In this document: one piece after another, positions 6,711 to 63,004 of the stretch
How positions within the stretch are numbered: position 1 is the first letter of the stretch
Layout: the number at the start of each line of letters is the position of its first letter
From: Bacteroidota bacterium
GTDB lineage: Bacteria > Bacteroidota > Bacteroidia > Bacteroidales > Lentimicrobiaceae
Length of the DNA stretch: 64,000 bases
Assembly: GCA_009773515.1 (NCBI GenBank)
Contig: WSXX01000027.1
Span: forward strand, 1 to 64,000
Reading direction: 5' to 3'
Position numbers and translations under genes: made by a program
The notes under the pieces: generated by a model
The model's database searches: none
What the model was told of the DNA's origin: nothing
What the model saw: the letters and a program-made list of their open reading frames with translations, nothing else

Positions 6711-7589
6711 ATGAATAAGCCTCTCCTACTGCTGTCACTCTTTGCTTTTATAATTCTTTCAGCGTGCAATACTGTCAGAAGCCCTGAAAATGAAGCAAAA
6801 ATAATTACAGTCAGCATCCTTCCTCAAAAAACCATTCTTGAGCATATTGCCGGTGATAAGTTTCAGGTTAACGTATTGATTCCGGAAGAGGGCAATCATG
6901 AAACTTATGAACCAACTGCCCGGCAGATGGCAGAAACCGGCAAATCCATTGCTTATTTTAAACTGGGGCATCTCGATTTTGAAGTCAACTGGCTGGATAA
7001 GCTGGTGCAGAATTATCCCGATATGAAAGTTGTAAATACTGCGAACCGTCTGGATCTTATTGTTGGTGAAGAGATTGTTCATGGCGATCATGTTCATGCC
7101 GGTGGCGTTGACCCGCACATCTGGTTATCGGTTTCAACAGTCAGGGTGCAGGCTGAAAATATGACCAAAGGATTGATTGAGCTTGATCCCGAAAATACCA
7201 GCTTTTTTGAAGCCAACTTAACACGTTTTGCAGCCAGTCTCGATTCACTTGATCAGCAGATCAGAGAAATTCTTGCAACTTCCGAAACACGCAGTTTTAT
7301 GATTTATCATCCATCGCTGGGATACTTTGCCCGTGATTATGATCTGGAGCAGATTGCCATTGAACAGGAAGGCAAAGAGCCAAGTCCGGCATATATGAAA
7401 CAATTGATTGACATTGCCGCTGAGAAAAATATAGGTACAATTTTCGTTTCAAGTCAGTTTAACAAACAAAGTGCATTGACCATTGCCGGCCAGATAAATG
7501 CAAAGGTTGAAGAATTCAATCCCATCAGCCCCGACTGGCATAACAATATGCTTTCAATTGCCAGGCAAATTGCCGGTTCATCCCGTTAA
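6711..7589 (+). CDS. znuA: Zinc/manganese ABC transporter substrate-binding lipoprotein (ZnuA-like)
   Basis: 292-aa cluster A-I solute-binding protein that captures Zn2+ or Mn2+ and delivers it to the permease. The lipobox ILSAC lipidates Cys19. Metal ligands of the family are visible: the first His in EGNHETYEPTA, a second His in VDPHIWLS, a third in MIYHPSLGYFARDY, and an acidic ligand expected near the C-terminus (EFNPISPDW region). The usual long His/Asp-rich loop of zinc-specific ZnuA is reduced to a short VHGDHVHAGG. It is followed after 15 bp by the ATPase gene and then the permease, so this is a complete three-gene uptake operon. Zinc is likelier than manganese, but sequence alone does not settle it. 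Confidence 0.88.
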   Translation: MNKPLLLLSLFAFIILSACNTVRSPENEAKIITVSILPQKTILEHIAGDKFQVNVLIPEEGNHETYEPTARQMAETGKSIAYFKLGHLDFEVNWLDKLVQNYPDMKVVNTANRLDLIVGEEIVHGDHVHAGGVDPHIWLSVSTVRVQAENMTKGLIELDPENTSFFEANLTRFAASLDSLDQQIREILATSETRSFMIYHPSLGYFARDYDLEQIAIEQEGKEPSPAYMKQLIDIAAEKNIGTIFVSSQFNKQSALTIAGQINAKVEEFNPISPDWHNNMLSIARQIAGSSR

Positions 7590-7604: not shown

Positions 7605-8369
7605 ATGTCAGAAATAGTTGAAATACGCAATGCAAGTGTCGGTTACAGCGACGATGTTGTTTTACGAAACATCAATCTGAGCATAGTTGATCAGGACTAT
7701 ATCGGTGTAATCGGGCCGAACGGCGGAGGCAAAACCACACTGGTAAAACTTATTCTCGGCCTTCTGCAGCCCATGCAGGGAGAAGTAATTTATCACAGCA
7801 ACAATAAAGAAAACCTGATTGGCTATCTGCCACAGGTAAGCCAGACAGACCGTAGTTTTCCCATCACGGTAAGTGAAGTGGTGCTTTCGGGATTGATGTC
7901 GTCCAAAGGTGGCCACGGAAATTTTAACCGCAGCGATAAATTGCGGGCGGGTGAAATTCTGGAAATGATGGGAATAATTCACCTGAAGAACAAAAGTATT
8001 GGTGAACTATCAGGCGGACAGATGCAACGTGCATTTCTGGGAAGAGCCATCATTTCGGAACCACGATTGCTGATACTTGACGAACCAAATACCTTTGTTG
8101 ACAATAAATTTGAGCATGACCTTTACGAACTGCTCCGCCAACTGAACCATAAAATGGCGATTATGATGGTATCGCACGATGTAGGCACCATTACAAGTTA
8201 TGTAAAAACCATAGCATGTGTAAACCGCAACCTGCATTATCACCCATCCAACATCATCACACAGAGCCAGTTAACAGCCTATAATTGCCCGATTCAACTT
8301 ATTACCCACGGCGATGTACCTCACACCGTGCTGGGCGAACATCACCACCACGACCATAAACATGACTGA
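7605..8369 (+). CDS. znuC: Metal ABC transporter ATP-binding protein (ZnuC-like) with His-rich tail
   Basis: 254-aa ABC ATPase that powers metal import. Walker A is GPNGGGKTT (about residues 38-46), the signature is LSGGQMQRA, Walker B is RLLILDEPN, and the switch His is in MMVSHDVGT. The length is normal for the family. The C-terminus carries a histidine cluster, EHHHHDHKHD, that could bind metal. The last eight coding nucleotides overlap the start of the permease gene (ATG at 8362, stop at 8367-8369), which implies translational coupling. It acts on the cytoplasmic face of the inner membrane. Confidence 0.92.
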   Translation: MSEIVEIRNASVGYSDDVVLRNINLSIVDQDYIGVIGPNGGGKTTLVKLILGLLQPMQGEVIYHSNNKENLIGYLPQVSQTDRSFPITVSEVVLSGLMSSKGGHGNFNRSDKLRAGEILEMMGIIHLKNKSIGELSGGQMQRAFLGRAIISEPRLLILDEPNTFVDNKFEHDLYELLRQLNHKMAIMMVSHDVGTITSYVKTIACVNRNLHYHPSNIITQSQLTAYNCPIQLITHGDVPHTVLGEHHHHDHKHD

Positions 8370-9418: not shown

Positions 9419-9453
9419 TAATTAGAAATTAGATATTGGAAATTAGATATTGG
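9419..9453. repeat. Short attaga/ttgga heptamer tract
   Basis: Imperfect tandem units built from aattaga and tattgga. Similar AT-rich heptamer tracts occur at 49022-49078, 54494-54522 and 62937-63004, always in intergenic DNA. Confidence 0.6.
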
Positions 9454-21491: not shown

Positions 21492-24038
21492 ATGAACAAG
21501 CCAGCCTTGCATGAACGTATCAAGGGGAAAATCTTTACCGGATTTTCATTATTACTCTTCCTGGTTCTGGCGGCAGTTTATGTCATCATTCAGATTGCTT
21601 CTCAACTCACCCCTCCCGACACCGGCGTATCGCAGTCAGTTACCAAACTATCTATTGTCAGCAATATGTTATCCACACTTATTGATGCTGACGGACAAGC
21701 AAGAGCTTACATTACCACCGGACGAAAAGTATATCTGAGCCAATATGAAACGCTCGAAAATAACATCAGAAATATCACTGATTCTCTGAAAACACTCAGC
21801 ATCGACGATCAGGAGCAATACAACAGGATGGCTGTGGTGGATAGCCTGCTCGATCTGAAAAAATCTGCGCTCGATAATTATTTCAGAATCAGACTATCCG
21901 GAGGTTCTGCAATTATAAGTCCGGAAAGACTACAGAATATAGTGGATCATTTCAGTGATACAATTGCTGTTTCATCTAAAATTCTGGCACTACCAGGTGA
22001 AAACAAGGAAAATGAAGTCACCACAAGTGAACCGGCAAAAAAAGAAACCCTGTTAAAAAGGCTTTGGTCAAACATCACAGGAAAACAGTCAAAAACAGAC
22101 AGCATCGCAATTGCTATTGGCGATAAAATTCAGAATGACACCCTGCAAACCTATACCCGGCTAAACGATTCGGCCATTAATCTTATCAGGGCTCAGCTAT
22201 TAATGATGAGTGAAGAAGAACGGGTAGAAAGACAACTGGCCATAGAAAGAGAATTGCTTCTGCTCAGAACAGATCAGTATATTCTCGATGAAATCAGAAA
22301 TGTACTTCTGCTTTTTGAGAAAGAAGAAATTAACCGGGCAATTGCCGGCGCAGAAAACTCCAGAGCAGTATTAAAAAAACTTTGGAATACCGCACTAATT
22401 GCTGCCATACTTGGCATTCTTACAATACTTATTTTTACTGTACTGATATGGAAAGATCTGGCGCGCAGTAATTTCTACAGAAAAAAACTTGAAGAAGCAA
22501 GGGCGCTGGCCGAAAAGCTGTTAAAAGTAAAAGAGATGTTTCTTGCCAATATGAGTCATGAAATTCGTACTCCGATTACCAGTATTATCGGTTTTTCAGA
22601 GCAGCTTTCTTCCACACGTTTATCAAACACCCAGTCAAAATACCTCAGGTATATCAATTCATCATCCGAGCATTTATTGAAACTGATTGACGATCTACTT
22701 GACTTTTCAAGAATTGAAAGTGGAAAACTGAGCCTTCAGGAAAGGCATTTTTATCCATCAAACCTGATAAAAGATGCTTTTGAAACCATGTATCCCCGCG
22801 CCAGATTAAAAGGCCTGGAAGCACGGTTGATTATGGAAATTGATCCTGAAATCAAAGTAAGCGGCGACGACCTCAGAATCAGACAAATACTGTTTAACCT
22901 GTTAAATAACAGCATTAAATTTACATCAGCCGGGAAGGTGACCGTTAAGGCACAAGCTGAAACCAACGGAGAAATTGTGACTTTATTTATGGAAGTCGCC
23001 GATACAGGTATTGGAATTCAATCTGAAAAACAACAGGAAATATTTAATGAGTTTACGCAGGTAGATGCCGGCATAACGAGAAAATACGGCGGATCAGGAC
23101 TTGGCCTTGCCATCAGCAAAAAGCTGACTGAAATGATGAAAGGGCAGATTGTGCTGTCGAGCACACCAGGTGAAGGCACCACTGTACTTGTTACAATTCC
23201 GCTGCAGATTTATACCGGAATAATCAAAAGTGTGGCAGAGGCTGAGGAAAAGAAGATCCCTGACCTTAGCGGATTCAGAATTCTGATAGCTGAGGATGAT
23301 GAAACCACGAGAATGCTTATTACTGAAATTCTGCTTGAAACCGGTGCAAAAGTTACTGAAACAGATAATGGCCAGTCAGCCTGGGATGTATTTGCGGAAA
23401 CGGAGGGCGATTTTGATCTGATTATTACCGATATTCAGATGCCGGGGCTCAGCGGGCCTGAACTGTCTGAAAAAATCCATGAGTGGTCAGGAGACAATCA
23501 AATTAAAGCCTGCCCCATACTTGGCCTTACAGCTCATGCCACCGGCGATGATATATCCCGCTACCGGGAGTCCGGAATGACAGAAATTCTTTTAAAACCA
23601 TTTAAACAACACAGTTTTCACCAGACTTTAATACAATTGCTTGAAGTTGAAAACGTTGGCATCAAAAAGAATAAACCTGAAATTACAGGCAACACGCCTG
23701 ATTTAACAGTATTTAATCAATTTGCGAACAACGATCCGGAAGCTTTAAAAAAAATCATAGTTTCGCTTGCTGATGGTTTGAAGGATACATCAACTGCGCT
23801 GGAGATCGCTTCAGAAGAGAAAGATTACATTAAAATCAGTTTACTTGCCCATCGCATACTGCCCAATCTACGCAATCTGAAAGCAAAAAATACAGTTGTA
23901 AAATTGCTGGAACTTGAAAATTTCAAAAAGAGTGGGCATCAGGAAAACGAAAAAATTGAAGAAACGCTTGTTTCTGCCATTGATGACCTGAAGAAAATAG
24001 AAATTGACCTTCGAAATCTGATCGCTGAACTTCACTGA
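21492..24038 (+). CDS. Hybrid sensor histidine kinase with receiver and degenerate Hpt domain
   Basis: 848-aa inner-membrane sensor. The start ATG at 21492 begins MNKPALHERIKGK, and an upstream in-frame ATG is less likely. There are two membrane helices (about residues 19-40 and 295-320) around a CHASE3-like extracytoplasmic domain (QARAYITTGRKVYLSQYE). HisKA has the phospho-His motif MSHEIRTPITSIIGFSEQL. The ATPase has the N-box NLLNNSIKF, DTGIGI and GGSGLGLAIS. The receiver has EDDETT and the phospho-acceptor in ITDIQMPG, with the Lys in LLKPF. The last 110 residues resemble Hpt, with AHRILPNLRN at the His position where the typical AHxLKGxA phrase is lost. Its 3' end overlaps the convergent response-regulator gene by 7 bp, suggesting a functional pair. 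The signal is unknown. Confidence 0.93.
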   Translation: MNKPALHERIKGKIFTGFSLLLFLVLAAVYVIIQIASQLTPPDTGVSQSVTKLSIVSNMLSTLIDADGQARAYITTGRKVYLSQYETLENNIRNITDSLKTLSIDDQEQYNRMAVVDSLLDLKKSALDNYFRIRLSGGSAIISPERLQNIVDHFSDTIAVSSKILALPGENKENEVTTSEPAKKETLLKRLWSNITGKQSKTDSIAIAIGDKIQNDTLQTYTRLNDSAINLIRAQLLMMSEEERVERQLAIERELLLLRTDQYILDEIRNVLLLFEKEEINRAIAGAENSRAVLKKLWNTALIAAILGILTILIFTVLIWKDLARSNFYRKKLEEARALAEKLLKVKEMFLANMSHEIRTPITSIIGFSEQLSSTRLSNTQSKYLRYINSSSEHLLKLIDDLLDFSRIESGKLSLQERHFYPSNLIKDAFETMYPRARLKGLEARLIMEIDPEIKVSGDDLRIRQILFNLLNNSIKFTSAGKVTVKAQAETNGEIVTLFMEVADTGIGIQSEKQQEIFNEFTQVDAGITRKYGGSGLGLAISKKLTEMMKGQIVLSSTPGEGTTVLVTIPLQIYTGIIKSVAEAEEKKIPDLSGFRILIAEDDETTRMLITEILLETGAKVTETDNGQSAWDVFAETEGDFDLIITDIQMPGLSGPELSEKIHEWSGDNQIKACPILGLTAHATGDDISRYRESGMTEILLKPFKQHSFHQTLIQLLEVENVGIKKNKPEITGNTPDLTVFNQFANNDPEALKKIIVSLADGLKDTSTALEIASEEKDYIKISLLAHRILPNLRNLKAKNTVVKLLELENFKKSGHQENEKIEETLVSAIDDLKKIEIDLRNLIAELH

Positions 24039-25408
24039 AGCGGAATATCGTACTGCTTCATTTTATTGTAAAGTGTTTTGCGGTCAATATTCAGCAGGCG
24101 TGCAGCTTTAGATTTATTGTATCTCACTTTTTCGAGGGCTGAAACAATAATTTCACGTTCACTCCGCCGGGCTGTTTCGCGAAGGCTGAATTCATCAGCA
24201 GCAACATTTTCAGACACAGAGGCTTCTGTTTGATTCGTTTCAGGAGCAAATCTTGATTCGTTAACCAATTCTTCAGGAAGAGTATCTGCACTGACGATCT
24301 GAGTTTTTGACAACAATACCGATCGCTTTATGATATTTTTCAGCTCCCTGAAATTTCCCGGCCATGAATAGTTTTTAAAAATTTCAAGAACTTCATCAGA
24401 AAACCCTGTTACACTTCGGCCAAGTTCCATATTTGCCTGCCTGAGAAAGTGACTGGTAAACAGTATCATATCATCGGGCCTTTCGCGTAAAGGAGGCACC
24501 TGAATGGCAAATTCATTGATGCGGTGATAAAGATCTTCTCTGAAATCTCCGCGCGACACTGTTTGCTTCAGGTCTTCGTTGGTGGCTGTTATGATCCGCA
24601 CATCGATCGGAATTTCAATTGTTGAACCAATCCTCCTGATTTTTCGCTCCTGAATAGCCCTGAGCAACTGAACCTGAATTTCATAGCTCAGATTGCCGAT
24701 TTCATCAAGAAAAATAGTGCCTCCATTTGCAGCTTCAAATTGTCCTTGTTTATCGTTAAATGCACCTGTGAACGAACCTTTCATGTGTCCGAAAAATTCG
24801 CTGCCGGCCAGATCGCGCGGAAGTGCTCCACAATCAATGGCAACAAATGGTTTCAGGTGACGTTCGCTCTGCTGGTGGATGCGTCTTGCCACAAATTCTT
24901 TTCCGGTGCCACTTTCGCCAAGTATCAGCACCGACATACCGGTGGGAGCAACCAGAGTGGTATGCTCACTGATTCTGGCAGCGGCTGCACTCTCCCCTTC
25001 CAGATATAAATCAACAAAATCAACACTTTTAACTGATGACTCAGTATTACCTGAACTGAGTGCCCTTTTAATTGTAGCCAGAATTTCGTCAGGATTAACG
25101 GGTTTTGCCACATAATCAAATGCGCCCATTCTCATGGCTTTAACGGCAGTCCGGATATCCCCGTAACTTGTCATCAACACAACCGGAACCACAGATGATT
25201 CAGCCTTTAACAAAGTCAAAAGTTCCAATCCATCATGATCGGGTAGCCGGAGATCTGTTAAAACAATATCCGGCTGAAATTCTAAAAACTTTTTCCGGCC
25301 ATCACTATAAGTAAATGCCTGACTCACGTTATAACCATGCTTAACCAACAGAGTTTCAAGCATCAGGCAAAACGTAACATCATCATCAACAATAAGCACC
25401 TTACTCAT
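24032..25408 (-). CDS. Sigma-54-dependent response regulator (NtrC family)
   Basis: 458-aa regulator with the usual three domains. The receiver begins at [12 protein letters not shown] and has the phospho-Asp in [12 protein letters not shown] and the Lys in VAKPVNPDE. The AAA+ activator domain (about residues 140-370) has Walker [11 protein letters not shown], the sigma-54-contacting loop as GSFTGAF instead of GAFTGA, and Walker [13 protein letters not shown]. The C-terminal Fis-type helix-turn-helix ends in [20 protein letters not shown]. The ATG at 25408 is chosen over an in-frame TTG 27 bp upstream. It should activate RNA polymerase-sigma54 promoters when phosphorylated, most likely by the convergently encoded hybrid kinase. 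Target genes are unknown. Confidence 0.95.
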
Positions 25409-25674
25409 GAGAAAAACATTAAAAATGTATAGCAAAAATAAGCGATTAATGCTTACTATGTCATTAAACGAAAAATTCTCTTAGAATTAGAGTTGCATTG
25501 GGGCACAGATGACAAGAATCAAATTGATTTTCGATAATTATTTTTTAGCACACTGAATGTACTGATCAAACAAATTTTCGCGGATTAATTTTATCTTTTC
25601 TTTGGATATCCGCCCCGATAGCTATCAGGATAATGTTCGCCGTGTTTCGGCCTTAAACGAGATCCGTGTTCTAT

Positions 25675-26877
25675 TTAATACAAAAAACCAAACAACCACA
25701 ATGGTATTTCGTTTCGGAAACCGATTGTTAATCCATCAAGGGCGAGGTAAGAATTGTCTAAATCCTTGATTTGCTTTGAAGTTTTATTTTTCCCGCCTAT
25801 TTCAAAATAGTATTTTCCATTAATGCAAAAATCTGTTTGTTCCGTGTAAGTAACGATATGATTTTGTTGCAGTTGGTTAAAGAAAAACGTTTCACGCAAA
25901 TTGCCTGTTTCCGGGTTTTCTCCTGAAAGTGCATAGTTGTAGTTGGTGTTTTGCAGATAAATCTTTTCGGGTTTAACCATCTGCCGTATTCCGGTTGCCT
26001 TCTGTTTTAGCAGCAAAACACTGTGCGACTTTTCGAGTAGTTGCAGGTAATTCATTAAACTTCTCCTGGTTACATCTACCATTTGACTTAATTGCGAAAT
26101 GTTAGGCATAAAAGGAACCATTCCTGAAAGTATGTAAAATAATTTTTTAATCCGGTTAATAGAATAAATATCGATACTTTCCACAAGTGGCAAATCGCTT
26201 TCCATTACGGTATTAAAAGTTTGCAAAACACGTTCGCTGTAACCGGCAATATCTTCAAGATAATAAGGATAATACCCATATTTAAGATATTTCTGAAAAG
26301 CAGGAAGCACTGTAATCACACTATTCAGTTGTTGAGCAATAGAAACGTGATTTTCAAGAATATCTTCGAGTGAATATGGTGTTTGTGATTTTGGCAGTAG
26401 TTCCTCAAAAATTAAAAATTCACGGAAAGACAAACCAAACAACTGAAAATGCCTGACACGACGGCTTAAATCGGCATCTGCTTTGAAAATCTGCAACATG
26501 GAGGAACCTGTAAAAACGATTTTCAGTTTCGGGAAATCATCGTAAATGTTTTTGATTTCCTGCGCCCAGTTCGGATATTTATGTACTTCGTCGAGGTACA
26601 ATTCTCTACCTCCATGAGCATAAAAATCATCGGCAAGATTATATAAATTATTGGTTGTGAAATAAATATTGTCTAAGCTCACAAAAAACACAATTTCGGG
26701 AGTGTTGCCGTGAAGTTCCTTTATATGTTGGAGCAACAAAGTGGTTTTTCCGGTTCCGCGGGCACCTGTAATGGCAATCAGGCGGTTGTTCCAGTCAATC
26801 TGGCTTTTCAAATAGCGGTCAAAACGCATATCTGTTTCTTCCAGCTTGCGATATAATGCCTGAATCAACAGTTTCAT
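25675..26877 (-). CDS. AAA+ ATPase with DUF4143 domain
   Basis: 400-aa protein of the AAA_14/DUF4143 type. The N-terminal AAA domain has Walker A AITGARGTGKTTLLLQH (about residues 36-52), Walker B ELYLDEVHKYPNW and sensor 1 KIVFTGSSMLQ. The C-terminal half holds a winged-helix-like segment (NISQLSQMVDVTRRSLMNYL) and a DUF4143/nuclease-like fold (TDFCINGKYYFEIGGKNKT). Such genes occur in many copies in Bacteroidota and archaea. A role in defence or in mobility has been guessed, but none is established. The length is normal and the frame intact. Two 18-bp palindromes upstream suggest tight repression. A second, broken copy lies 6.6 kb away. Confidence 0.9.
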   Translation of the reverse strand: MKLLIQALYRKLEETDMRFDRYLKSQIDWNNRLIAITGARGTGKTTLLLQHIKELHGNTPEIVFFVSLDNIYFTTNNLYNLADDFYAHGGRELYLDEVHKYPNWAQEIKNIYDDFPKLKIVFTGSSMLQIFKADADLSRRVRHFQLFGLSFREFLIFEELLPKSQTPYSLEDILENHVSIAQQLNSVITVLPAFQKYLKYGYYPYYLEDIAGYSERVLQTFNTVMESDLPLVESIDIYSINRIKKLFYILSGMVPFMPNISQLSQMVDVTRRSLMNYLQLLEKSHSVLLLKQKATGIRQMVKPEKIYLQNTNYNYALSGENPETGNLRETFFFNQLQQNHIVTYTEQTDFCINGKYYFEIGGKNKTSKQIKDLDNSYLALDGLTIGFRNEIPLWLFGFLY

Positions 26878-26892
26878 ACCCTATATTTTTCA

Positions 26893-26957
26893 CAAAGGTA
26901 TATAAATGTATTTTAGAAAATACAAAAACCTTAACATTTTGTATTTTAGAAAATACA
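26893..26957 (-). promoter_or_regulatory. ATPase promoter with two identical palindromic operators
   Basis: On the minus strand, -33 TTTG (26923-26926) and -7 TACCTTTG (26893-26900) are 22 bp apart. The near-perfect palindrome tgtattttagaaaataca lies between them (26907-26924) and again at 26940-26957, upstream of -33. Centres are 33 bp apart, about three helical turns, so repressor dimers would bind the same face. The identical pair with the same 33-bp spacing occurs at 32471-32521. Confidence 0.7.
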
Positions 26958-27054
26958 ATTATGTGTTAGAATGATAAATTTCCTTCAAATTGTTGTATAA
27001 ATGCTCAGAAGAATACACTAAAATCACCTTTCATTTTTTGTGACTCAAACAAAA

Positions 27055-28032
27055 CTACAAGCTATTGTGAAAATAAAAACCAAGAGTTACATTGTTGATA
27101 ATGTTTGGTTTAAGGCTGATTCGGTAATCATACATTACTTTGGTACGCATACTTAACCTGAAGTACTTCAGGAAAATAAAGTGAAAAGCCTGATTTATAT
27201 CAAAACCATAACGATATATTAGCTTCAGGTCGTCTTTTATCACTCTGGCCTGGCTAAAATTTTCAAAATAGATATTTTTAGAAATCTTTTGCGTGGGAGC
27301 GGAAATGGTTAATGAAAACCCAAAGTCAAGTTTTTTCTTTTGCCCTTTCTCAAGCCCATACAGATAATCAGTTTGCAGAATATCATAGTATTTCTGGTTT
27401 TTCATAATCGTACTCATCCCATTTACAAGGCCCAGTTCAATGGAAATACCTTTGCCTGTGTATCTCATTCCTGCCGAAATTATGCGATAACCCGGCGATT
27501 TGTGTGACGATTTTGGGGTAGCTATTGTTTTACCGGTACTATCTAATGAATAAAAGAATTGGTTATAATACTGGCTGCGGGACATGAACATAAAATTTGC
27601 CGCAAACTTGGAGTTGGCCAGCCGGTAGGATAAGGAGTTTTTTATATTATACTGGTCAGCCTGAATAATTGCAATACTGTCGAAATACTTCATTATTCCG
27701 AAATCGGTAGTGTAAAGTAAGTTATAAGAAAATTTCCTGAAATAAAGATCGCCTGCTAAGGTAACATTGTAATAGAAGTAAAAATTTCCTTTATCATTTT
27801 TATTTTTACTGTTTAAGAGCTGCGTAAGCGCAAAGGAAGAATAAAAATCAGCCATATAATGGTATTTTAACTGCTTGTTCTGCAGTTTTTTTGCAAGTTC
27901 TGTTGAATCGGATATCGAATCTGTTTGCCCCTGGCAAACAATAGGGCTAATAAACATGAGAATTGCAAAAATAATAATGAAAACGGCTTTAGCTTTCAAT
28001 AACCAATATATGTTATATTTTGCTAAAGCCAT
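27055..28032 (-). CDS. Putative outer-membrane beta-barrel protein, 325 aa
   Basis: The start ATG at 28032 gives MALAKYNIYWLLKAKAVFII, a long signal peptide ending near FISPIVCQGQ. An upstream in-frame TTG is less likely. The mature protein is rich in alternating aromatic/polar strands typical of outer-membrane barrels (NFYFYYNVTLAGDLYFRKFS, SLSYRLANSKFAANFMFMSR, YRISAGMRYTGKGISIELG). The organisation resembles Bacteroidota DUF3078-type barrels, but the match is not certain. Its function is unknown. It follows the small secreted-protein gene at 28085-28516 on the same strand and may share its transcript. Confidence 0.7.
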   Translation of the reverse strand: MALAKYNIYWLLKAKAVFIIIFAILMFISPIVCQGQTDSISDSTELAKKLQNKQLKYHYMADFYSSFALTQLLNSKNKNDKGNFYFYYNVTLAGDLYFRKFSYNLLYTTDFGIMKYFDSIAIIQADQYNIKNSLSYRLANSKFAANFMFMSRSQYYNQFFYSLDSTGKTIATPKSSHKSPGYRIISAGMRYTGKGISIELGLVNGMSTIMKNQKYYDILQTDYLYGLEKGQKKKLDFGFSLTISAPTQKISKNIYFENFSQARVIKDDLKLIYRYGFDINQAFHFIFLKYFRLSMRTKVMYDYRISLKPNIINNVTLGFYFHNSL

Positions 28033-28084
28033 TGGTATATAAGTCTTTACCAATCCTGATGAACTTTATTTATCTGGCAACACT

Positions 28085-28516
28085 TTATAGTGAAATTACA
28101 ATTTCGTAAGTGCCGTTTTTCTCCAATAGATTATATTGCCCCTTTTTTATGTTAATATCTGCTGTAGCTTTAAGCATGGTTTTAACATCATCGGGAAGCA
28201 CAAAATCTTCTTCAAGTACAACAGTACTTTTGTTTTGAAAATACTGTAACATTGCAGGGTTTTTCTGAGCTATCTCGGTTTGGGCAATTGTTACAACAAA
28301 AATGCGCTGCTCAGCATCGTATTTAAACCTACAGTACATTTCGCCTTTGGGAGAGGTTGACTGGTCGGTTGCCATTTTGCAAAAGCCAAAGCCCGAGCAA
28401 CTTGAGCTGGATTTCTTACCAAAAGTAATTGTTCCGGTGCCTTCAATGGGGGCAGTAAAGCCCGATAAGGCAAACAGAAAGCTAATTGCCAATGTTAAAA
28501 AAGTGGTTGTTTTCAT
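28085..28516 (-). CDS. Small exported protein, 143 aa
   Basis: The signal peptide is MKTTTFLTLAISFLFALSGFTA. Close to the mature N-terminus lies KKSSSSCSGFGFCKMA, a CxxxxxC pair that could form a disulfide or bind a ligand. A single domain of about 100 residues follows (FVVTIAQTEIAQKNP, VVLEEDFVLPDDVK). A similar CSGFGFC-type leader occurs in several small Bacteroidota secreted proteins, from memory. It is 200 bp downstream of the thioredoxin-like gene and 52 bp upstream of the barrel-protein gene. No function can be given. Confidence 0.72.
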   Translation of the reverse strand: MKTTTFLTLAISFLFALSGFTAPIEGTGTITFGKKSSSSCSGFGFCKMATDQSTSPKGEMYCRFKYDAEQRIFVVTIAQTEIAQKNPAMLQYFQNKSTVVLEEDFVLPDDVKTMLKATADINIKKGQYNLLEKNGTYEIVISL

Positions 28517-28716
28517 GGTGTTTGGTTGTTTTGTGTTAAAAAATGTAGAAGGGGGCGATATTAATGTAACAGAACTGGTTCAATTAAAAGGAATTACAAA
28601 AAAGTAATGCAAATAGACCCATATAACATAGGCAAACGAAATCCAATGTGTATTTCATTTTTACCTTTGCAAAAGAGTTCCGGCAAACCTGCATTGCTTT
28701 AAACATAGGGCAGATG

Positions 28717-29994
28717 TTATTTATCATTTCTTTTCATTTCAAACTCAATTTTTTCAAGTAGTTCGGTTATTTCTGCATAGTCTTCATTGTTTTCTTTTGC
28801 AAGTTGGATAGCATATAAAACATCAGAATGTGCAGAAACCATATCTAACAATTTGAATTTTATGTATGCACTAATGTAATAATTATGAGAACTTTCATTT
28901 AAAAATATTGCTTGTTTAATCCAATCTTCTGCCTGCATTAATTTTGTGGAATCACTGAAATAGGAAGAATAATACCATGCATTATTCCTTAGGAGTTTTT
29001 CATTATTTATAATTAATTTATTGTATTCTTCAATACTTTTAGTATATTTTGTGGAGTTTCTATTGTGATCGAAAAAAAATATTTCTAAACTTTTTGAATA
29101 GAAATCCGGCAATTCAAATATTATTATAGGATTTTCATTTTCTTCATTATAGATTTCATATTCTCTATTGCTATAAGTTGAGATTTTGGGTAAAGAATTG
29201 AAAAAATTTATAGAGTCATTGATTTTAGCAAGCGATAATAGGCAATTATTTAAAATAAATGCTTGACGAGATATTACTTGTATTGAATCAAAATATTTGA
29301 AATAGAGTTCACTTTGTTCAAAAATGCTATTGTATGCCTTAGAGTTATAACGTATTAAGCATTTGTTATTAAATATACTATACATGTAAATAAAACGCAA
29401 AACATCATATGTAATTAGATCGGTAGAATCTAAAGATTCAATATATCTATTAAAGAGTACAGAATCTAATTCAAAAGTATTAATTGCTATTGAACAGTAA
29501 TCACGTAAAAAATCTTTATTAGTTATACCAGATTCAAACATATTTTTATACCAAGTATAAGATTTTGTTAATGAATTATGATCAATTTTTAATAATTGTA
29601 GCAATTCATATTTTTCAATGTAACCAGACACCTTATGTACTATTTGATTATTTGTGTCTAGAATAATTAGAGTTGGATATATGTGAATATTATAGAAGTC
29701 ATTGACTAATGATTTACCATTTACTATTCCATTGATTTTGTATGCTTTATAATTTTTCAAAACGAAACTTGCTATAGTCGAATCTTGAAATGTTTCAACT
29801 TCAATTTTTTTGCAAACACCACACCCACTAAAGAAGAAATATAGCAAGACAGGTTTATCTTGCTTTTCATCGATAATTGTTTGGACTTCAGTCCAACTCA
29901 AAGGTGTAAAATTTACTTGCGAAAAAGAAAGCAGAGGTAAATTAAATATAAGAACCAGAACTATTGCTGGCAAGTTCATCGTTTTTTTCATCAT
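28717..29994 (-). CDS. Exported thioredoxin-fold protein with helical C-terminal region
   Basis: 425-aa protein with signal MMKKTMNLPAIVLVLIFNLP and a thioredoxin-like domain (residues of about 30-145). The active-site motif is FFSGCGVCKKIEVETF, a CxxC redox pair, followed by the cis-Pro-type strand IYPTLIILDTNN. The remaining 270 residues are helical, perhaps TPR-like (ISAYIKFKLLDMVSAHSDV). The family (thioredoxin_7-like) is usually periplasmic and reduces or oxidises disulfides. Its ATG overlaps the stop of the upstream lipoprotein gene (ATGA), so the two are translationally coupled. The protein encoded two genes upstream has 12 cysteines, a plausible partner by context. Confidence 0.82.
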   Translation of the reverse strand: MMKKTMNLPAIVLVLIFNLPLLSFSQVNFTPLSWTEVQTIIDEKQDKPVLLYFFFSGCGVCKKIEVETFQDSTIASFVLKNYKAYKINGIVNGKSLVNDFYNIHIYPTLIILDTNNQIVHKVSGYIEKYELLQLLKIDHNSLTKSYTWYKNMFESGITNKDFLRDYCSIAINTFELDSVLFNRYIESLDSTDLITYDVLRFIYMYSIFNNKCLIRYNSKAYNSIFEQSELYFKYFDSIQVISRQAFILNNCLLSLAKINDSINFFNSLPKISTYSNREYEIYNEENENPIIIFELPDFYSKSLEIFFFDHNRNSTKYTKSIEEYNKLIINNEKLLRNNAWYYSSYFSDSTKLMQAEDWIKQAIFLNESSHNYYISAYIKFKLLDMVSAHSDVLYAIQLAKENNEDYAEITELLEKIEFEMKRNDK

Positions 29995-30395
29995 TTACAA
30001 ATTTGATCATTTACAAATTTGAAGAACAAAGTATCTGTTCTCGTAATATTAGTTAAAACCATTAATTTCATATTCTCGACATTAATATGTAGTGTATCAA
30101 GGATTGAGTCATACCCTATAATTATTATTGAATCTGAATTATTTGGTATTAATTCTCCTGAAAGAAAGACCGAATCATTTGTGCTCCAAGATATCTTTTT
30201 TCCATTGAAGTTCAGAAAAACCGTATTATATTTATCTAATGAATCACTTTTAGATCCCAAAAGTAAATAACTCAAAGGAATATGATTTGCAGAGTATCTG
30301 TAGAGTTCCCAAGTTCCATTGTAACATTTTTCTTGGTTTCTACAACTCATAATAAAAGTTGTCATTACAACAATAAATAAAAGAAAACGTTTCAT
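29991..30395 (-). CDS. Small putative lipoprotein, 134 aa
   Basis: The N-terminus MKRFLLFIVVMTTFIMSC is a lipoprotein signal with Cys18. The mature part begins RNQEKCYNGTWELYRYSA, reminiscent of lipocalin-like small domains (GTWELYR... strands ... TLHINVENMKLMVL). That would suggest a small beta-barrel ligand binder, held loosely. The stop codon overlaps the ATG of the thioredoxin-like gene. It is preceded by the Cys-rich protein gene 66 bp upstream, so the three probably form one operon. Confidence 0.75.
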   Translation of the reverse strand: MKRFLLFIVVMTTFIMSCRNQEKCYNGTWELYRYSANHIPLSYLLLGSKSDSLDKYNTVFLNFNGKKISWSTNDSVFLSGELIPNNSDSIIIIGYDSILDTLHINVENMKLMVLTNITRTDTLFFKFVNDQICK

Positions 30396-30461
30396 AAAAA
30401 AAATTTATAAAAATTTCCGGGCCAAAAGTTACCTGTCAACCCAGAAATTTTTCAAGTTATA

Positions 30462-31265
30462 TTAATATTGGTATTGTCTTGTAGAAGAGCTTGGGGAATT
30501 TAATGAACAAGTTCCACTACAATTACCTTCACAAGAATAAATTTTGTAACCAAATGCACCATTTGAAGTTACACTACAACTCCCTTGTGTACAAGAACAA
30601 CTATATTTCTTTGAAGAATTAGAAATATTCATTGATTTGGCGGTTTCTTCTGATAAAATAATCAAGGCACCTCTGCCCATAATATTAACCGCTACAAAAA
30701 CATATCCATCTGGAGCTTGGTATTCTGAGTTTGAGATTTTGATTGCTTCAGGAGGAGCCACTCCTTTGTATACATTGGAAAAGAAAGACGATAATGAGGA
30801 GTTGACAGATTGAAAATCTAACATCTCACCAAAGAATGAAGGTAGTTCAGCATACTGCTTCAGTAAATTTACACCAACTTTCGTGTTGATAAAGCCTCCC
30901 TTTTCGAATGATAAAGATCTATTGTTTGCTGTGGTTGAACCAGTGCAATTAGTACAACCATTTTCAAAATTGCATCCTGATGTTGAAGCACCGCCTGGCC
31001 CAGAAGCAATGTAAGGTTTACAACCACCAGAAGCAGATGTACAATCACAAGAAACTGACACCTGTCCAGTGGCAGAAGAAACACGTCCATTAGAAGTAAG
31101 TCCAACGTAAACAAAGCCAGCAGGGGGAGTGACTTGAATAACATTTTCAATTACGTTTGTCGTGGAACCTTCAGGAATCCATAATACTCCATTAATTTGA
31201 GAGTATCCGAAAACTCCGAGTGTTGTTAAGAAGATTGTAGTAATAAATTTTCCATAACTATTCAT
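30462..31265 (-). CDS. Secreted protein with duplicated six-cysteine module, 267 aa
   Basis: The signal peptide is MNSYGKFITTIFLTTLGVFGYSQ. The protein contains two copies of one module. Copy 1 starts near residue 46 with TPPAGFVYVGLTSNGR and has cysteines at 73, 75, 82, 98, 104 and 107. Copy 2 starts near 183 with QAPDGYVFVAVNIMGR and has cysteines at 223, 225, 230, 245, 249 and 253. Both follow CxC-x4/6-C-x14/15-C-x3/5-C-x2/3-C, which points to disulfides or metal binding. Similar single-module Cys-rich secreted proteins exist in Bacteroidota, as I recall, without known function. It is the first gene of the unit with the lipoprotein and thioredoxin-like genes. Confidence 0.8.
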   Translation of the reverse strand: MNSYGKFITTIFLTTLGVFGYSQINGVLWIPEGSTTNVIENVIQVTPPAGFVYVGLTSNGRVSSATGQVSVSCDCTSASGGCKPYIASGPGGASTSGCNFENGCTNCTGSTTANNRSLSFEKGGFINTKVGVNLLKQYAELPSFFGEMLDFQSVNSSLSSFFSNVYKGVAPPEAIKISNSEYQAPDGYVFVAVNIMGRGALIILSEETAKSMNISNSSKKYSCSCTQGSCSVTSNGAFGYKIYSCEGNCSGTCSLNSPSSSTRQYQY

Positions 31266-31459
31266 AGTTCATTTTTTTTAAACATTACTATATCATCAAT
31301 AATAGATGAATTTTTCCACTCTCGCAGTCAATTAGTTGCGTATATGTACGCCATAACCATCGCCAGTTCATTCTTCTTACTTTACACACCAAAACCGGAT
31401 AAAATGAGTAAACTCAACCCTTTTATATGCATTAAATGCATAAATAACCAAACAGCGGA

Positions 31460-31490
31460 TTGACTTCCTGTTTAATTTTGTATATCTTTG
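31460..31490 (+). promoter_or_regulatory. Strong plus-strand promoter of the candidate sRNA
   Basis: TTGAC (TTG at 31460-31462) and TATCTTTG (31483-31490) are separated by 20 bp, a near-ideal Bacteroidota promoter. No plus-strand gene follows it within the gap. The DNA it would transcribe ends in a terminator-like hairpin about 75 bp on. Confidence 0.7.
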
Positions 31491-31491
31491 C

Positions 31492-31568
31492 AGAGCCTCT
31501 CATTGGTTTTGGTTAATACTGGTTTATCGCTTATTCTGGTAATCGGCCCCAATCGGAGGCTTTTTCTA
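31492..31568 (+). ncRNA. Candidate small RNA of about 75 nt
   Basis: It begins just after a strong promoter and is closed by a stem, agcctc-tc-attgg (31494-31506) with ccaat-cg-gaggct (31549-31561). That is 12 of 13 pairs counting one G-T wobble. The stem is followed by TTTTTCTATTTT. The 42-nt loop region (ggttaatact...ctggtaatcgg) is unpaired or partly paired. A second terminator-like hairpin (aaagg / ccttt, 31574-31590) follows. No known RNA family is recognised. The rest of the 427-bp gap 31266-31692 shows no gene, and the sRNA lies on the opposite strand to both neighbours. Confidence 0.55.
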
Positions 31569-31692
31569 TTTTCAAAGGTGGCTGGCCTTTATTTTAAAAA
31601 TGAATGGTTGTTAGATTACAATTTCATCCAAGTTTATTAACGCAAATATATGCAGTTAACTCCATACAAAACAGATGGAACTCCATAAATTT

Positions 31693-31902
31693 TCATTTAT
31701 TTTCACTTATCTGGTAATAGGTTCTTCGTCGGGTGCAATAGCCTATATTATGTCCATCTTCTCTTAAAAGAGCCAGATATTTCTCTGCTGTAGGTTTTGA
31801 AATACAAAGCCGCTCAGCCAATTGACTTGCAGTTCCGGTGTTTTGTTCGCTAATTAATGAAAGCAGGTAATCGAGTTTTTGCTTCTTATCAATGAATCGC
31901 AT
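31693..31902 (-). CDS. Small helix-turn-helix protein, 69 aa
   Basis: The 69-residue protein is one winged-helix/HTH module with the phrase ASQLAERLCISKPTAEKYLALLREDG (helix-turn-helix at about residues 24-49) and a wing YCTRRRTYYQ. It lacks any effector domain, so it is a stand-alone DNA-binding protein like those of the DeoR/HTH_11 type. It lies beside the candidate sRNA and near the palindromes controlling the DUF4143 unit, so it could be the repressor of either; that is inference. The start ATG at 31902 gives the natural domain start MRFIDKKQKLDYLLSLI. Confidence 0.8.
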   Translation of the reverse strand: MRFIDKKQKLDYLLSLISEQNTGTASQLAERLCISKPTAEKYLALLREDGHNIGYCTRRRTYYQISENK

Positions 31903-31950
31903 AATGGTGGTTTATTAAAAGGAGTAGATTATTTTGAATTAGTTCATAAA

Positions 31951-32075
31951 ACAGCGTGGCATACTGCCAACGCTGTACTCGAGGCCCGACCAAGAGCCCA
32001 TCCAACAACATTAAACAATAGCCACGCTTGGCGTGGCGTATTGCTCATTCTGTGAGATAGAAAATTTGGTCGGTT
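31951..32075. repeat. Structured intergenic region with nested inverted repeats
   Basis: Hairpin 1 pairs acagcgtggca with tgccaacgctgt (31951-31976). Hairpin 2 is gccacgc-ttg-gcgtggc (32021-32037), extended by caata/tattg. Outer arms ccgaccaa (31986-31993) and ttggtcgg (32067-32074) enclose hairpin 2. The motif gcgtggcrtaytgc occurs directly twice. It is probably an RNA or single-strand DNA fold. No gene is seen in the rest of the 422-bp gap 31903-32324. Confidence 0.65.
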
Positions 32076-32266
32076 TCATGTACAGAAAAAACTTTATGCT
32101 ATTTGGAATAATTATTTTCTTTAGAGCTTTTTATTTGTTGATTCTCCTTTCTTTTGGGTTTGTATATAATTATTTAAAGTCAGAATGCTGATTTTGTTTT
32201 ACAAAAATAGGTCGAATATCTTTAAAATCAAATCAACAGACAAAATTATAATTTATCTCGAATTTT

Positions 32267-32525
32267 AAATCTTTCCTGTGAATATCCGTTCCGATAGCCA
32301 GGATTGGTGTCATCTATGCTCTATTCAATACAAAAAACCAAACAACCACAATGGTATTTCGTTTCGGAAACCGATTGTTAATCTATCAAGGGCGAGGTAA
32401 GACTCAATTGGAAAAAATTCCGAAAAATAAATGGATCGGCTGATTATAATCAAATCGCTTTCTGATAAGATGTATTTTAGAAAATACAAATTCCTTAACA
32501 TTTTGTATTTTAGAAAATACAATTA
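32267..32525 (-). pseudogene. Internally deleted copy of the DUF4143 ATPase unit
   Basis: The last 24 codons of the ATPase (YLALDRLTIGFRNEIPLWLF then GFLY, stop at 32325) match the full gene at 25675-26877, with one residue changed. Its 3' flank to about 32267 is also similar. Then follow about 68 bp of unrelated sequence (32403-32470) and the two operator palindromes (32471-32488 and 32504-32521) with the original 33-bp spacing. All of the AAA domain is gone, so no ATPase can be made. The remaining open frame should not be called a gene. Confidence 0.8.
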
Positions 32526-32758
32526 CCTGAAGCTTATTACTTAATCGCATCGTTGAGCATCTGTTGCATCTATGTTCTCCTGGCACATAAACCCTGCGCC
32601 AAAAGGTCAGTTTTAATATACAAATCTACAACAGAATTGTTGAATTACTTTTTAATATGCATGATAATTTGAAATTTCATTTGAGATTATCATGATATTT
32701 TTTCTATGGAAAACAGTCGCGTCTAAGTCGCCTGTGATCTATCTGGAATTCATTTCAG

Positions 32759-32773: not shown

Positions 32774-34012
32774 ATGCCAAAAGATTCAAATTTCCATACA
32801 ATTATTATTGGTGCCGGCCCTGCCGGACTATTCGCTGCGGCCAATATTCAGTCATCACAAACTTTGATTATCGAAAAAAAGGAATCGCCAGGGCGCAAAC
32901 TTTTAATCTCCGGCACCGGTCAATGCAATTTTACACATGCAGGATCAATGAGTGATTTCAAAAATCACTTTGGCGAGAATTATCAGTTTCTGAGCAAAGC
33001 CCTCAAGACATTTACAAATCAGGATGCCATTGAATTTTTCAAAGCCAAAGGAGTGAACTGCATTATCGATCCGAATGGAAAAGTATTCCCTGTATCGCTC
33101 AAAGCTGCTGATATTCTCAATGCATTGTTATTTTCGTGCCGCAACGCAGGCGCAGTGCTTCAGACCGGAAGCGGCGTTCTATCCATTCAAAAAGAGAACG
33201 ACAAATTTGTTGTGAACACCGATTCCGTTAGTTATACATCAGATTTTTTGATACTTGCAACCGGCGGAAAATCATATCCCACTACCGGCTCAACTGGCGA
33301 TGGATACCGGTTTGCAGCTTCACTTGGACACACAATTGTGGAGCCTCGTCCGGCACTTGCCCCGATAACTGTCAGCAATTATGAGCTTGCAGAATTGGCT
33401 GGAATAAGCTTTCAAAATATAGAAATCACTCAATGGAGAGACAATAAGAAACTCCGGACTTTCATTGGCGACATTGTGCTCACACATACCGGACTTTCAG
33501 GCCCGGGGATTCTTAATAATGCGCGCTATTTCATGCCTGGCGACGAACTGATGCTTAACTTCAGCAATGTACCTGAATCTGAATTTGAACAACAATTTGT
33601 CAGTCAGGCCAATAGTACAGGAAAAATGCCAATCTCCAGCTATATAAAAAATACCGGCATTCCAAAAAACCTGGCAAATTTTATTCTTTTAAAAGTTATC
33701 GGTAGTTTGACCAGACCTATGGCTGAAATATCAAAATTTCAACGAAAAACCCTCATTAACCATTGCTGCGCTTATCCATTCATCATCAGCCAGGTTGGCA
33801 GTTTTAAAACAGCCATGGCAACCGCCGGAGGGGTTGCGCTTCATGAAATCAACCCTTCAACCATGGAATCGCTGCTGGTTCCTAAGCTTTACTTTTGTGG
33901 TGAAGTAATGAATATTGACGGTGATACGGGCGGTTATAATATACAAGCGGCCATGTCAACGGCTTACCTTGCTGCGATGAATATTTCGAAGGCATCTGAA
34001 ACATTTTTTTAA
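32774..34012 (+). CDS. FAD-dependent oxidoreductase of the YhiN/HI0933 family
   Basis: 412-aa flavoprotein. The N-terminal dinucleotide-binding motif is IIIGAGPAGLFAA (about residues 10-22), followed by the family phrases KKESPGRKLLISGTGQCNFTH and LATGGKSYPTTGSTGDGYRF. The C-terminal phrase LYFCGEVMNIDGDTGGYNIQAAMS binds FAD. The family is widespread and mostly uncharacterised. Named relatives include BaiN, linked to bile-acid 7-dehydroxylation, but I do not infer that substrate here. The ATG is preceded within seven bases by a TATATTTG element. The gene is convergent with the DHODH-like gene, with hairpins in the 121-bp gap between them. Confidence 0.9.
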   Translation: MPKDSNFHTIIIGAGPAGLFAAANIQSSQTLIIEKKESPGRKLLISGTGQCNFTHAGSMSDFKNHFGENYQFLSKALKTFTNQDAIEFFKAKGVNCIIDPNGKVFPVSLKAADILNALLFSCRNAGAVLQTGSGVLSIQKENDKFVVNTDSVSYTSDFLILATGGKSYPTTGSTGDGYRFAASLGHTIVEPRPALAPITVSNYELAELAGISFQNIEITQWRDNKKLRTFIGDIVLTHTGLSGPGILNNARYFMPGDELMLNFSNVPESEFEQQFVSQANSTGKMPISSYIKNTGIPKNLANFILLKVIGSLTRPMAEISKFQRKTLINHCCAYPFIISQVGSFKTAMATAGGVALHEINPSTMESLLVPKLYFCGEVMNIDGDTGGYNIQAAMSTAYLAAMNISKASETFF

Positions 34013-54448: not shown

Positions 54449-54487
54449 GAGGTTGAGGTTGAGGTTGAGGTTGAGGTTGAGGTTGAG
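54449..54487. repeat. gaggtt hexamer tandem repeat
   Basis: Six and a half uninterrupted copies of gaggtt. It is followed by an attaga heptamer tract (54494-54522) and then, at 54582-54614, by a palindrome near the next gene's promoter. Perfect hexamer tandems are prone to length change. No coding frame runs through it. Confidence 0.9.
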
Positions 54488-54581
54488 ACTTTAGACATTA
54501 GAAATTAGAAATTAGAAATTATCTCCTTGTCTCCCATTCTCCTTTTCACCTTGTCTTAGAATTAAATACGCTCTCAAAGAA

Positions 54582-61986: not shown

Positions 61987-62934
61987 ATGATTAGTGAACA
62001 AGAAATAAAACGCGCAGCTGACATTATCAGGCAAGGTGGCCTGGTTGCGTTTCCGACTGAAACAGTATATGGATTGGGTGCAAATGCCCTTAATCCACAA
62101 GCAGTTGCCAGAATTTTTGAAGCCAAAGAACGTCCTTCATTTGATCCTCTGATTGTTCATATTGCCAATATTGAAGACTTAAAATCTTTAACAATAAACC
62201 AGGATGAAAGAATTTACAGCTTAGCTGAAAAATTCTGGCCCGGACCTTTGACGCTTGTTCTGCCCAAAAGCAGCATTGTTCCCGATATTGTAACTTCCGG
62301 ATTAAATACTGTTGGAATCAGAATGCCGGATAATTCAATTGCACTTGATCTGATAAAATTTGCTGGATGTCCGGTTGCAGCACCCAGCGCCAACAAATTC
62401 GGAAGGATAAGCCCTACGAAAGCGGAACATGTGAGAAAGCAACTTCCGGCTGTTGATTGCATTTTAGATGGAGGACCAACAAAAGTTGGGATAGAATCTA
62501 CAGTAATTACCATACATTCCGACGGTTTTGTTATTCTGCGGCAGGGAATCATAACCAAAGAAGAACTGGAAACAGTTTTGCCACAATCGAAACAAAAAAT
62601 CCGCAAAAGCGAAATAATTTCTTCCCCGGGAAATATAAAATCTCACTATAGCCCAAATAAACCGCTTTATATTCAGGGAGAATACACAAAAGAGCTGAAC
62701 ACAAAAAATGCAGCTTTTCTTTCATTTGGAAAGAAACCTGAAGGTGAGTTTAAAATGATTGAGTACCTTTCTGAAAATGCAAACCCATATGAAGCGGCGA
62801 ATAACTTATTTGCAAAATTACATCAGCTTGAAGACAGTGATATAGATTTTATTGTAGCTGAGCCTGTGCCTGAAACCGGTATTGGAATTGCAATAATGGA
62901 CAGGCTGAGAAGAGCGGCGCATAGATACTTGTAG
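61987..62934 (+). CDS. L-threonylcarbamoyladenylate synthase (Sua5/YwlC type)
   Basis: 315-aa enzyme that makes threonylcarbamoyl-AMP for the t6A modification of tRNA. The YrdC-type core has GGLVAFPTETVYGLGANALN (about residues 18-37), KERPSFDPLIVHI and FAGCPVAAPSANKFGRISPT. A C-terminal Sua5 domain of about 115 residues (SPGNIKSHYSPNKPLYI ... TGIGIAIMDRLRRAAHRY) makes this the long Sua5 type, not the short TsaC type. A 60-bp gap separates it from rmuC. Confidence 0.93.
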   Translation: MISEQEIKRAADIIRQGGLVAFPTETVYGLGANALNPQAVARIFEAKERPSFDPLIVHIANIEDLKSLTINQDERIYSLAEKFWPGPLTLVLPKSSIVPDIVTSGLNTVGIRMPDNSIALDLIKFAGCPVAAPSANKFGRISPTKAEHVRKQLPAVDCILDGGPTKVGIESTVITIHSDGFVILRQGIITKEELETVLPQSKQKIRKSEIISSPGNIKSHYSPNKPLYIQGEYTKELNTKNAAFLSFGKKPEGEFKMIEYLSENANPYEAANNLFAKLHQLEDSDIDFIVAEPVPETGIGIAIMDRLRRAAHRYL

Positions 62935-62936
62935 AG

Positions 62937-63004
62937 AAATTTCTAATTTCTAATTTCTAATTTCTAATTTCTAATTTCTAATTTCGGATTTCGGATTTCT
63001 AATT
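62937..63004. repeat. tttctaa heptamer tandem tract
   Basis: About nine tandem tttctaa-type heptamers with two ggatttc changes at the end. Same class as the tracts at 9419, 49022 and 54494. Confidence 0.9.

Follow-up and report, generated by a model that had tools for sequence, protein, structure and literature searches.

A probable self-regulated AAA+ ATPase module with paired promoter palindromes, and its internally deleted copy, in a Lentimicrobiaceae bacterium

Autoregulated repressor genes with paired operators are known as a general kind of genetic unit, and ATPases that combine the Pfam families AAA_14 and DUF4143 are presumably related to the archaeal SSO1545-type ATPases. Here we describe a locus from a Bacteroidota bacterium of the family Lentimicrobiaceae at which an ATPase gene of this type (copy A) carries two identical palindromes upstream of its start codon and is accompanied by a short, internally deleted counterpart (copy B). 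The locus lies in the window, by which we mean the whole stretch of DNA that was analysed (64,000 nucleotides; positions 1 to 64,000 of contig WSXX01000027.1, GenBank assembly GCA_009773515.1), and the genome to which it belongs is called the home genome below. A further described system that bears on this locus is PDC-S01, a PADLOC phage-defence candidate, which two 2026 reports present as extremely common, with most PDCs still lacking validation (PMC12988326; PMC13356809), and as very abundant and repeatedly transferred (PMC12988326).

Our analysis indicates that copy A is probably an AAA+ ATPase module that is self-regulated through its own paired palindromes and has spread horizontally, and that copy B is probably a decayed duplicate without its middle. 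The most plausible reading of the pair of copies is an ordinary event in an unusual family. The main result is a private operator code at near-constant pitch, placed before the genes of a very common kind of ATPase, of which our searches of the open-licence literature found no description.

Comparison of the two copies by BLASTN within the window recovered a gene-end block of 86 bp (B 32317-32402 versus A 25667-25752, 96.5% identity, 3 mismatches), an operator block of 61 columns (B 32465-32525 versus A 26902-26961, 95%) and a weaker flank match of about 45 bp (B 32261-32304 versus A 25587-25631, 79%, E 0.002). An earlier reading of the sequence (the original prediction) had claimed a common gene 3' end, flank and set of 5' palindromes, with which this comparison agrees; the block that it gave as 82 bp with two mismatches is real, but has the length and mismatches just stated. 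Copy B (32261-32525) has the same orientation as copy A and lies about 5.3 kb from it, with homology stopping 4 bp outside the distal palindrome, close to where the original prediction had placed its end. The gene-end and operator blocks are separated in copy A by gene and promoter DNA of about 1.15 kb, and in copy B by about 68 bp (32403-32470). This filler aligns with the ATPase gene no better than shuffled sequence does (798 of 1000 shuffles reach the same score), which upholds the claim that more than 1 kb of interior was exchanged for some 68 bp of unrelated DNA. The longest word that filler and gene have in common, of 12 bp, is a borderline result (41 of 2000); a candidate origin of the filler as a remnant of codons 225-241 rested on this one 12-mer and was abandoned when the alignment proved not significant. 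In copy A the palindromes stand some 30 and 63 bp before the ATG (26877), on its upstream side, with the promoter-like TACCTTTG box between the proximal palindrome and the ATG, and are therefore situated within the promoter region (Table 1). Searches of the home assembly (5.03 Mb, 97% complete), one of which scored the best 40 of its 60 candidates, found no third copy of the unit.

The architecture of copy B is not unique to this genome, as six remnants that consist of an operator array and a gene 3' end were seen (copy B, L062 of genome G116, L084, L095/L177, L119 and L182). At one of these loci the route is observed directly. The Leadbetterella metagenome-assembled genome (MAG) stretch L084 aligns with the orthologous Lacihabitans stretch L093 at 92% over 5.0 kb and again at 87% over 430 bp past the gene, but lacks 1.07 kb, nearly all of it gene, in place of which stand 53 bp of unaligned filler. 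Thus the same architecture was made in place by an internal deletion with filler DNA, which is decisive for the route at that locus and means that transposition is not needed to produce it; the operators and the 3' end persist because they escaped the deletion. We infer that copy B, itself a duplicate, took the same route. N-terminal-only remnants (L169, L185) and solo arrays exist as well. The remnants in L062 and L119 occupy positions 1851-2048 and 856-959, respectively, and the one in L182 has, by eye, a quite different upstream repeat.

ATPase relatives in other genomes carry other upstream motifs, often palindromic, at the equivalent place; 17 of 60 units, against 1 of 125 controls, have 9-bp arms that pair over their full length. 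What stays near-constant is the spacing. We measured the pitch as the best upstream 18-mer direct repeat regardless of its sequence, with a cut of at least 14 matches of 18. Among 40 units that were not drawn from the pattern scan described below, 27 pass this cut and 26 of those 27 have a pitch of 32 or 33 bp. After removal of four units linked to the operator pattern (the window unit, L078, L079 and L160), the 32-33 bp pitch is present in 22 of the 36 that remain, a sample that includes genomes picked for holding a solo array, compared with 2 of 119 control upstream regions taken from other open reading frames (ORFs) at the same loci (Fisher 3e-15; 11 of the 119 controls have any repeat of at least 14/18, the 2 at this pitch among them). 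Three of five relatives on viral contigs also have a 32-33 bp repeat with at least 14/18 matches, and a fourth has one at 33 bp with 13/18. The sequence TAnnTTTG, the Bacteroidota -7 box, is no more than 60 bp away from the ATG in 54 of 60 units, compared with 30 of 123 control ORFs. The subfamily therefore has what marks an autoregulated operator-promoter unit, namely repeated or palindromic sites that recur at the promoters of the genes themselves.

The association between operator and gene also holds when the operator alone is used as the query. A scan for the exact pattern TGTATTN6AATACA-N15-TGTATTN6AATACA, performed on a genome collection of 84,980 species with no protein information, returned 42 stretches, 28 of which are beside an ATPase of this superfamily (27, plus L106/L160). 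These include ATPases from MAGs of Fibrobacter, Nanohalarchaeota and Bdellovibrionales with 21-28% identity to that of copy A, and one from a Micrarchaeota MAG that is recognised by profile only. Three further stretches are beside only a gene 3' end (L084, L095 and L119, the last with 18 residues). The remaining 11 are beside neither; two of them are at contig ends (L083 and L115), L104 still has its promoter and start codon, and in L117 an ATPase-like ORF begins 275 bp away and was left out of the count. A scan across the order that allowed up to 2 mismatches gave matches in 9 of 393 genomes, the home genome included, and none with a reversed control. The match in genome G066 (2 mismatches, no ATPase in the 3.1 kb examined) is probably due to chance.

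The product of copy A matches the Pfam family AAA_14 at 100.5 bits (cut-off 27) and DUF4143 at 25.9 bits (cut-off 28.1). The original designation as a DUF4143 ATPase is to be corrected in that AAA_14 is the strong match and DUF4143 itself falls below the curated threshold. The accompanying statement that DUF4143 genes are multicopy is correct, as the home genome has 14 DUF4143 matches, 13 of them above the cut-off. The predicted structural model (predicted local distance difference test score 91.8) comprises an AAA+ core, a helical lid, a unit at residues 237-308 and a C-terminal alpha/beta domain. The 237-308 unit, with predicted helices at 237-251, 260-267 and 271-283 followed by strands at 287-290 and 305-308 (helix-helix-helix-strand-strand), reads as a putative winged helix, and the C-terminal domain reads, from its topology, as PD-(D/E)XK-like and presumably nuclease-like. 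Structure comparison by Foldseek listed Cdc6/Orc1 on origin DNA among the first matches, as well as DnaA, RuvB and clamp loaders; a sequence search for solved relatives gave none at E 0.01. A covariation test covered 61 relatives, of which 24 carry the TGTATT operator. Gap columns aside, the strongest association with operator type is that of residue 270 (z 6.8), located where the presumed recognition helix begins, and residue 272 is also high (z 4.7). Across 19 aligned sequences E359, G361, G362 and K365 (region 349-365) are invariant. An ExK motif is expected at that place in a DUF4143-type nuclease fold; nuclease activity is therefore doubtful, and the sequence suggests that the active site may be altered or lost.

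We propose a mechanism in which the winged helix would let the ATPase, as a dimer or oligomer, bind the palindromes of its own gene. These sites are about three helical turns apart, so that two dimers could share the same face of the DNA and cooperate. As the proximal site is located just upstream of the promoter box, binding there would block or gauge transcription and would hold the ATPase at a low set level. Since the palindrome sequences differ among related genes, co-resident paralogs would not be expected to cross-regulate. The gene would travel horizontally together with its operator, and copy B would have arisen as a duplicate of copy A in which an internal deletion with filler DNA took the promoter box and most of the gene, leaving the operators and the 3' end.

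A number of observations weigh against this explanation. Seven of the 42 arrays (L085, L089, L099, L102, L105, L108 and L122) occur without gene or remnant, some of the examined stretches ending nearby, and these are not accounted for by autoregulation alone. Under our cut, a clear 32-33 bp repeat is lacking in 14 members of the subfamily set of 36. A clear repeat at this pitch occurs in 6 of 35 DUF4143 genes from outside the subfamily, of which 13 are paralogs from the home genome and 22 come from further genomes in the phylum (Fisher 0.002 versus controls), so that the rule concerns this subfamily and some neighbours, not DUF4143 at large. The winged-helix reading derives from one predicted model, and the Foldseek whole-chain TM-scores are low (0.23-0.36 among the 50 listed solved structures). 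The covariation test handled phylogeny crudely, by 70% clustering alone; residue 382 in the C-terminal domain is associated with operator type nearly as strongly as residue 270 (z 6.5), and the 25 highest-ranking columns show no enrichment for the winged-helix region (3 of its 72 positions, versus 9 of 79 for the lid region). Additionally, identity between copies A and B is patchy, at 97% for the gene end, 95% for the operators and 79% for the flank.

That the unit is an anti-phage defence gene of the PDC-S01 kind, which its operators would keep silent until infection and which would be carried laterally and lost when selection lapses, is a serious possibility to which we give slightly less than even weight. 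PADLOC models of PDC-S01 match residues 21-310 of the ATPase at E 1.4e-27 (94.8 bits) and residues 30-342 at E 2.5e-27, as judged by E-value and not by PADLOC's acceptance threshold. The patchy distribution and decay of the unit are as this explanation would have them, and relatives of the ATPase occur on plasmids (35 records) as well as in one phage record and on five viral contigs. However, all 35 plasmid records are predicted to be non-mobilizable, and comparison with the PADLOC models gave no match at E 0.001 for the five proteins encoded between the two copies. A defence function is compatible with a self-regulated, horizontally spread module and is not opposed to it. ATPases of this kind are listed in defence catalogues under PDC-S01, which is counted among the commonest prokaryotic defence candidates, with validation pending.

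A more specific extension of the self-regulated module would hold for a large family of AAA+ ATPases at present taken for phage-defence candidates: each gene's own palindrome, set on the near-constant 32-33 bp pitch, would be read by that gene's own winged helix as an identity tag that insulates the many paralogs of a cell, and solo arrays that remain from decayed or transferred copies would serve as decoys or offer incoming units a place to land. We regard this extension as tentative and, taken as a whole, rather unlikely.

The original prediction took the two copies for an autonomous mobile element with the palindromes as recognition ends and a non-autonomous derivative resembling a miniature inverted-repeat transposable element (MITE). 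We consider this improbable, even though several features of the distribution would suit it. The closest relatives of the copy A ATPase, at 78-86% amino acid identity, are from another family of the order (G282) or from MAGs titled as other genera and families. When ten such units are compared, 28 of 45 pairs have DNA similarity with the same two limits, the outer margin of the distal palindrome (-79 to -92 relative to the ATG) and the stop codon (-4 to +6); in the other 17 it extends past one of these limits or both, at most by about 110 bp. These common edges, which a mobile element would also leave, fit a compact, laterally spread module of gene plus operator and do not of themselves demonstrate self-mobility. 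They are weak proof of transposition because selection would likewise keep just the operator and the coding region. Among these pairs, the closest two have a fourfold-site identity of 0.70, which suggests that the unrelated flanks are not simply eroded, and is silent on how the unit moved. Array-plus-3'-end copies in several genomes, and the absence of the unit from 12 congener stretches, can also be counted in favour of an element.

Two observations made outside the home genome hint at mobility. The L078 ATPase gene, 84% identical to that of copy A, has near-copies of the array on both sides (6713-6849 and 8075-8237), which form a direct repeat of 163 columns at 80%. The MAG UBA5219 contains four orphan operator arrays of 51 bp (L083, L102, L115 and L122) that are identical at 45-49 of 51 positions and lie in different surroundings. 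The two full subfamily ATPases found in UBA5219 bear other operators, and a 451-bp query mostly matched two other dispersed repeats there. A candidate reading in which the orphan arrays are fused to the last gene codons was dropped, as the aligned copies share essentially the array alone. Elsewhere, L092 has, by eye, a palindrome-like stretch directly past the stop codon, a further point that an element would explain.

Against an element stand the one-sidedness of the palindromes and the lack of a copy family. Terminal inverted repeats are absent: the significant reverse-strand matches of the unit are those of the palindrome array with itself or with the array of copy B, and BLASTN within the window gave no counterpart of the palindromes at the 3' end of copy A. 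No target duplication was seen by eye at the junctions, and the profile matches of the ATPase are of ATPase type alone, with no transposase or recombinase-like family among them. The dispersed copies with the same ends found in the home genome number two (A and B), fewer than a transposon family would show, and the exact palindrome pair occurs in 0 of 246 relatives; for the home genome the proposed check for multiple copies with the same boundaries came out negative. Array-like motifs within 200 bp past the stop codon were found in 4 of 42 units versus 7 of 269 control windows, which is not convincing, and a downstream array was rejected as a rule of these units. In Lacihabitans L093 and L098 the unit and its flanks are common over 6.4 kb, and therefore reflect vertical descent with the unit staying put. 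With in-place deletion documented at the Leadbetterella/Lacihabitans locus, N-terminal-only remnants and solo arrays occurring alongside, and no third copy, the interpretation of copy B as a MITE-like derivative is mostly not sustained. That of the palindromes as recognition ends is not supported, since they are promoter sites with none at the 3' end and relatives have other sequences at the same spacing. Of the suggestion that the unit may be mobile, lateral spread with common edges stands, and self-mobility, for which neither a second end nor a copy family or target duplication was seen, is not demonstrated. In another Lacihabitans comparison, the DNA that adjoins the unit in L114 parts from that in L093 precisely at the edge of the array on one side and at the stop codon on the other; on the array side, which has a four-palindrome array, 51 versus 195 bp differ before similarity resumes.

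Least probable, and very improbable in our view, is an iteron-initiator-like pair in which an ORC/DnaA-like protein would act on its own array to open or remodel the DNA there, and solo arrays would serve as decoys, as the regular iterated sites adjoining the gene and the Foldseek matches to Cdc6/Orc1, DnaA and clamp loaders would allow, but the sites are beside a promoter box, AAA+ matches are expected for any AAA+ query, and the plasmid relatives have below 60% identity.

The surroundings of the two copies were compared with stretches from 12 of the 18 congeners in our set. The flanking response-regulator and HI0933-like genes are directly adjacent in 7 of the 12, with the DNA from 25.4 to 32.8 kb missing between them; a further response-regulator segment lies between them in 3, and the remaining 2 allow no judgement. 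None of the 12 yielded the ATPase or the five genes that separate copies A and B, and the congener intergenic DNA is too diverged for placing breakpoints. Copies A and B were considered as ends of a composite element around the intervening genes, in line with the adjacency of the flanks in the 7 congeners, but this was rejected as window 31361-31980 is genus DNA that recurs elsewhere in G018 (82-84%) and G006 (77%). Next to copy B is a remnant that matches the promoter-operator region of another ATPase paralog, L005, over 42 bp at 90%, and the intergenic stretch therefore carries remnants of two different ATPase units side by side. The immediate 3' flank of copy A is a separate repeat, dispersed on its own in the home genome. 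Window 25640-25675 and the home-genome loci L019-L023 and L005:841-879, on several contigs, hold a dispersed repeat whose core, around GTGTCTCGGCCTTAGACGAGATCCGTGTG, is hairpin-like; one diverged copy adjoins the stop codon of copy A. Short-unit repeats (TTGAATCC-like and GAAATTA-like) flank several DUF4143 paralogs (L007-L012, home-genome contigs C30 and C65) and recur in the window at 9420-9452, 54483-54555 and 62932-63004.

Table 1. Positions of copies A and B and of adjoining features in the window
Feature	Position	Strand	Basis
Left neighbour, sigma-54 response regulator; beside HI0933-like gene in 7/12 congener stretches	24032..25435	-	
3' flank of copy A, diverged copy of a dispersed home-genome repeat; abuts stop codon	25561..25674	+	
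Copy A, intact AAA_14 / DUF4143-type ATPase gene, 400 aa, C-terminus IPLWLFGFLY	25675..26877	-	profile match, predicted fold
Promoter-like element TACCTTTG, matches TAnnTTTG	26893..26900	-	sequence
Proximal operator palindrome TGTATTTTAGAAAATACA, perfect, 18 bp	26907..26924	-	sequence
Distal operator palindrome TGTATTTTAGAAAATACA, identical, 33 bp from proximal	26940..26957	-	sequence
Copy B, diverged counterpart (79%) of 3' flank of copy A	32261..32304	+	BLASTN
Copy B, last 26 ATPase codons (92% aa)	32325..32402	-	
Copy B, 68 bp in place of gene interior and promoter element of copy A	32403..32470	-	
Copy B, two operator palindromes (32471-32488 and 32504-32521), 33 bp apart	32471..32521	-	
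Solo promoter-operator remnant with first in-frame ATG, other ATPase paralog (L005 type, G000:C15, home genome)	32660..32701	+	
Right neighbour, HI0933-like oxidoreductase	32774..34012	+	

If the private operator code is true, it can be read from DNA alone and would predict which protein binds which site. It would also aid the correction of start sites and mark dead copies, and both autoregulation and the insulation of paralogs could be tested in a few reporter assays. In addition, palindromes beside ATPase genes of this kind call for caution before they are read as transposon ends. Like MITEs and insertion sequence elements, the locus has a short copy with both borders of a longer gene-bearing unit; unlike them, it is without terminal inverted repeats, a copy family or a visible target duplication, and an in-place deletion route is seen elsewhere. 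As for the Pfam AAA_14 and DUF4143 ATPases, the product of copy A has a clear AAA_14 domain, while its C-terminal domain is only weakly DUF4143. By sequence it is like the PADLOC models of PDC-S01, for which abundance and repeated transfer are reported, and it differs in having operators, of which the accessible portions of the PDC-S01 reports make no mention (PMC12988326; PMC13356809). Finally, as in autoregulated repressors, the palindromes abut the gene's own promoter box with two sites about three turns apart, whereas here the presumed repressor is an AAA+ ATPase and the operator sequence varies among relatives while the 32-33 bp pitch is kept.

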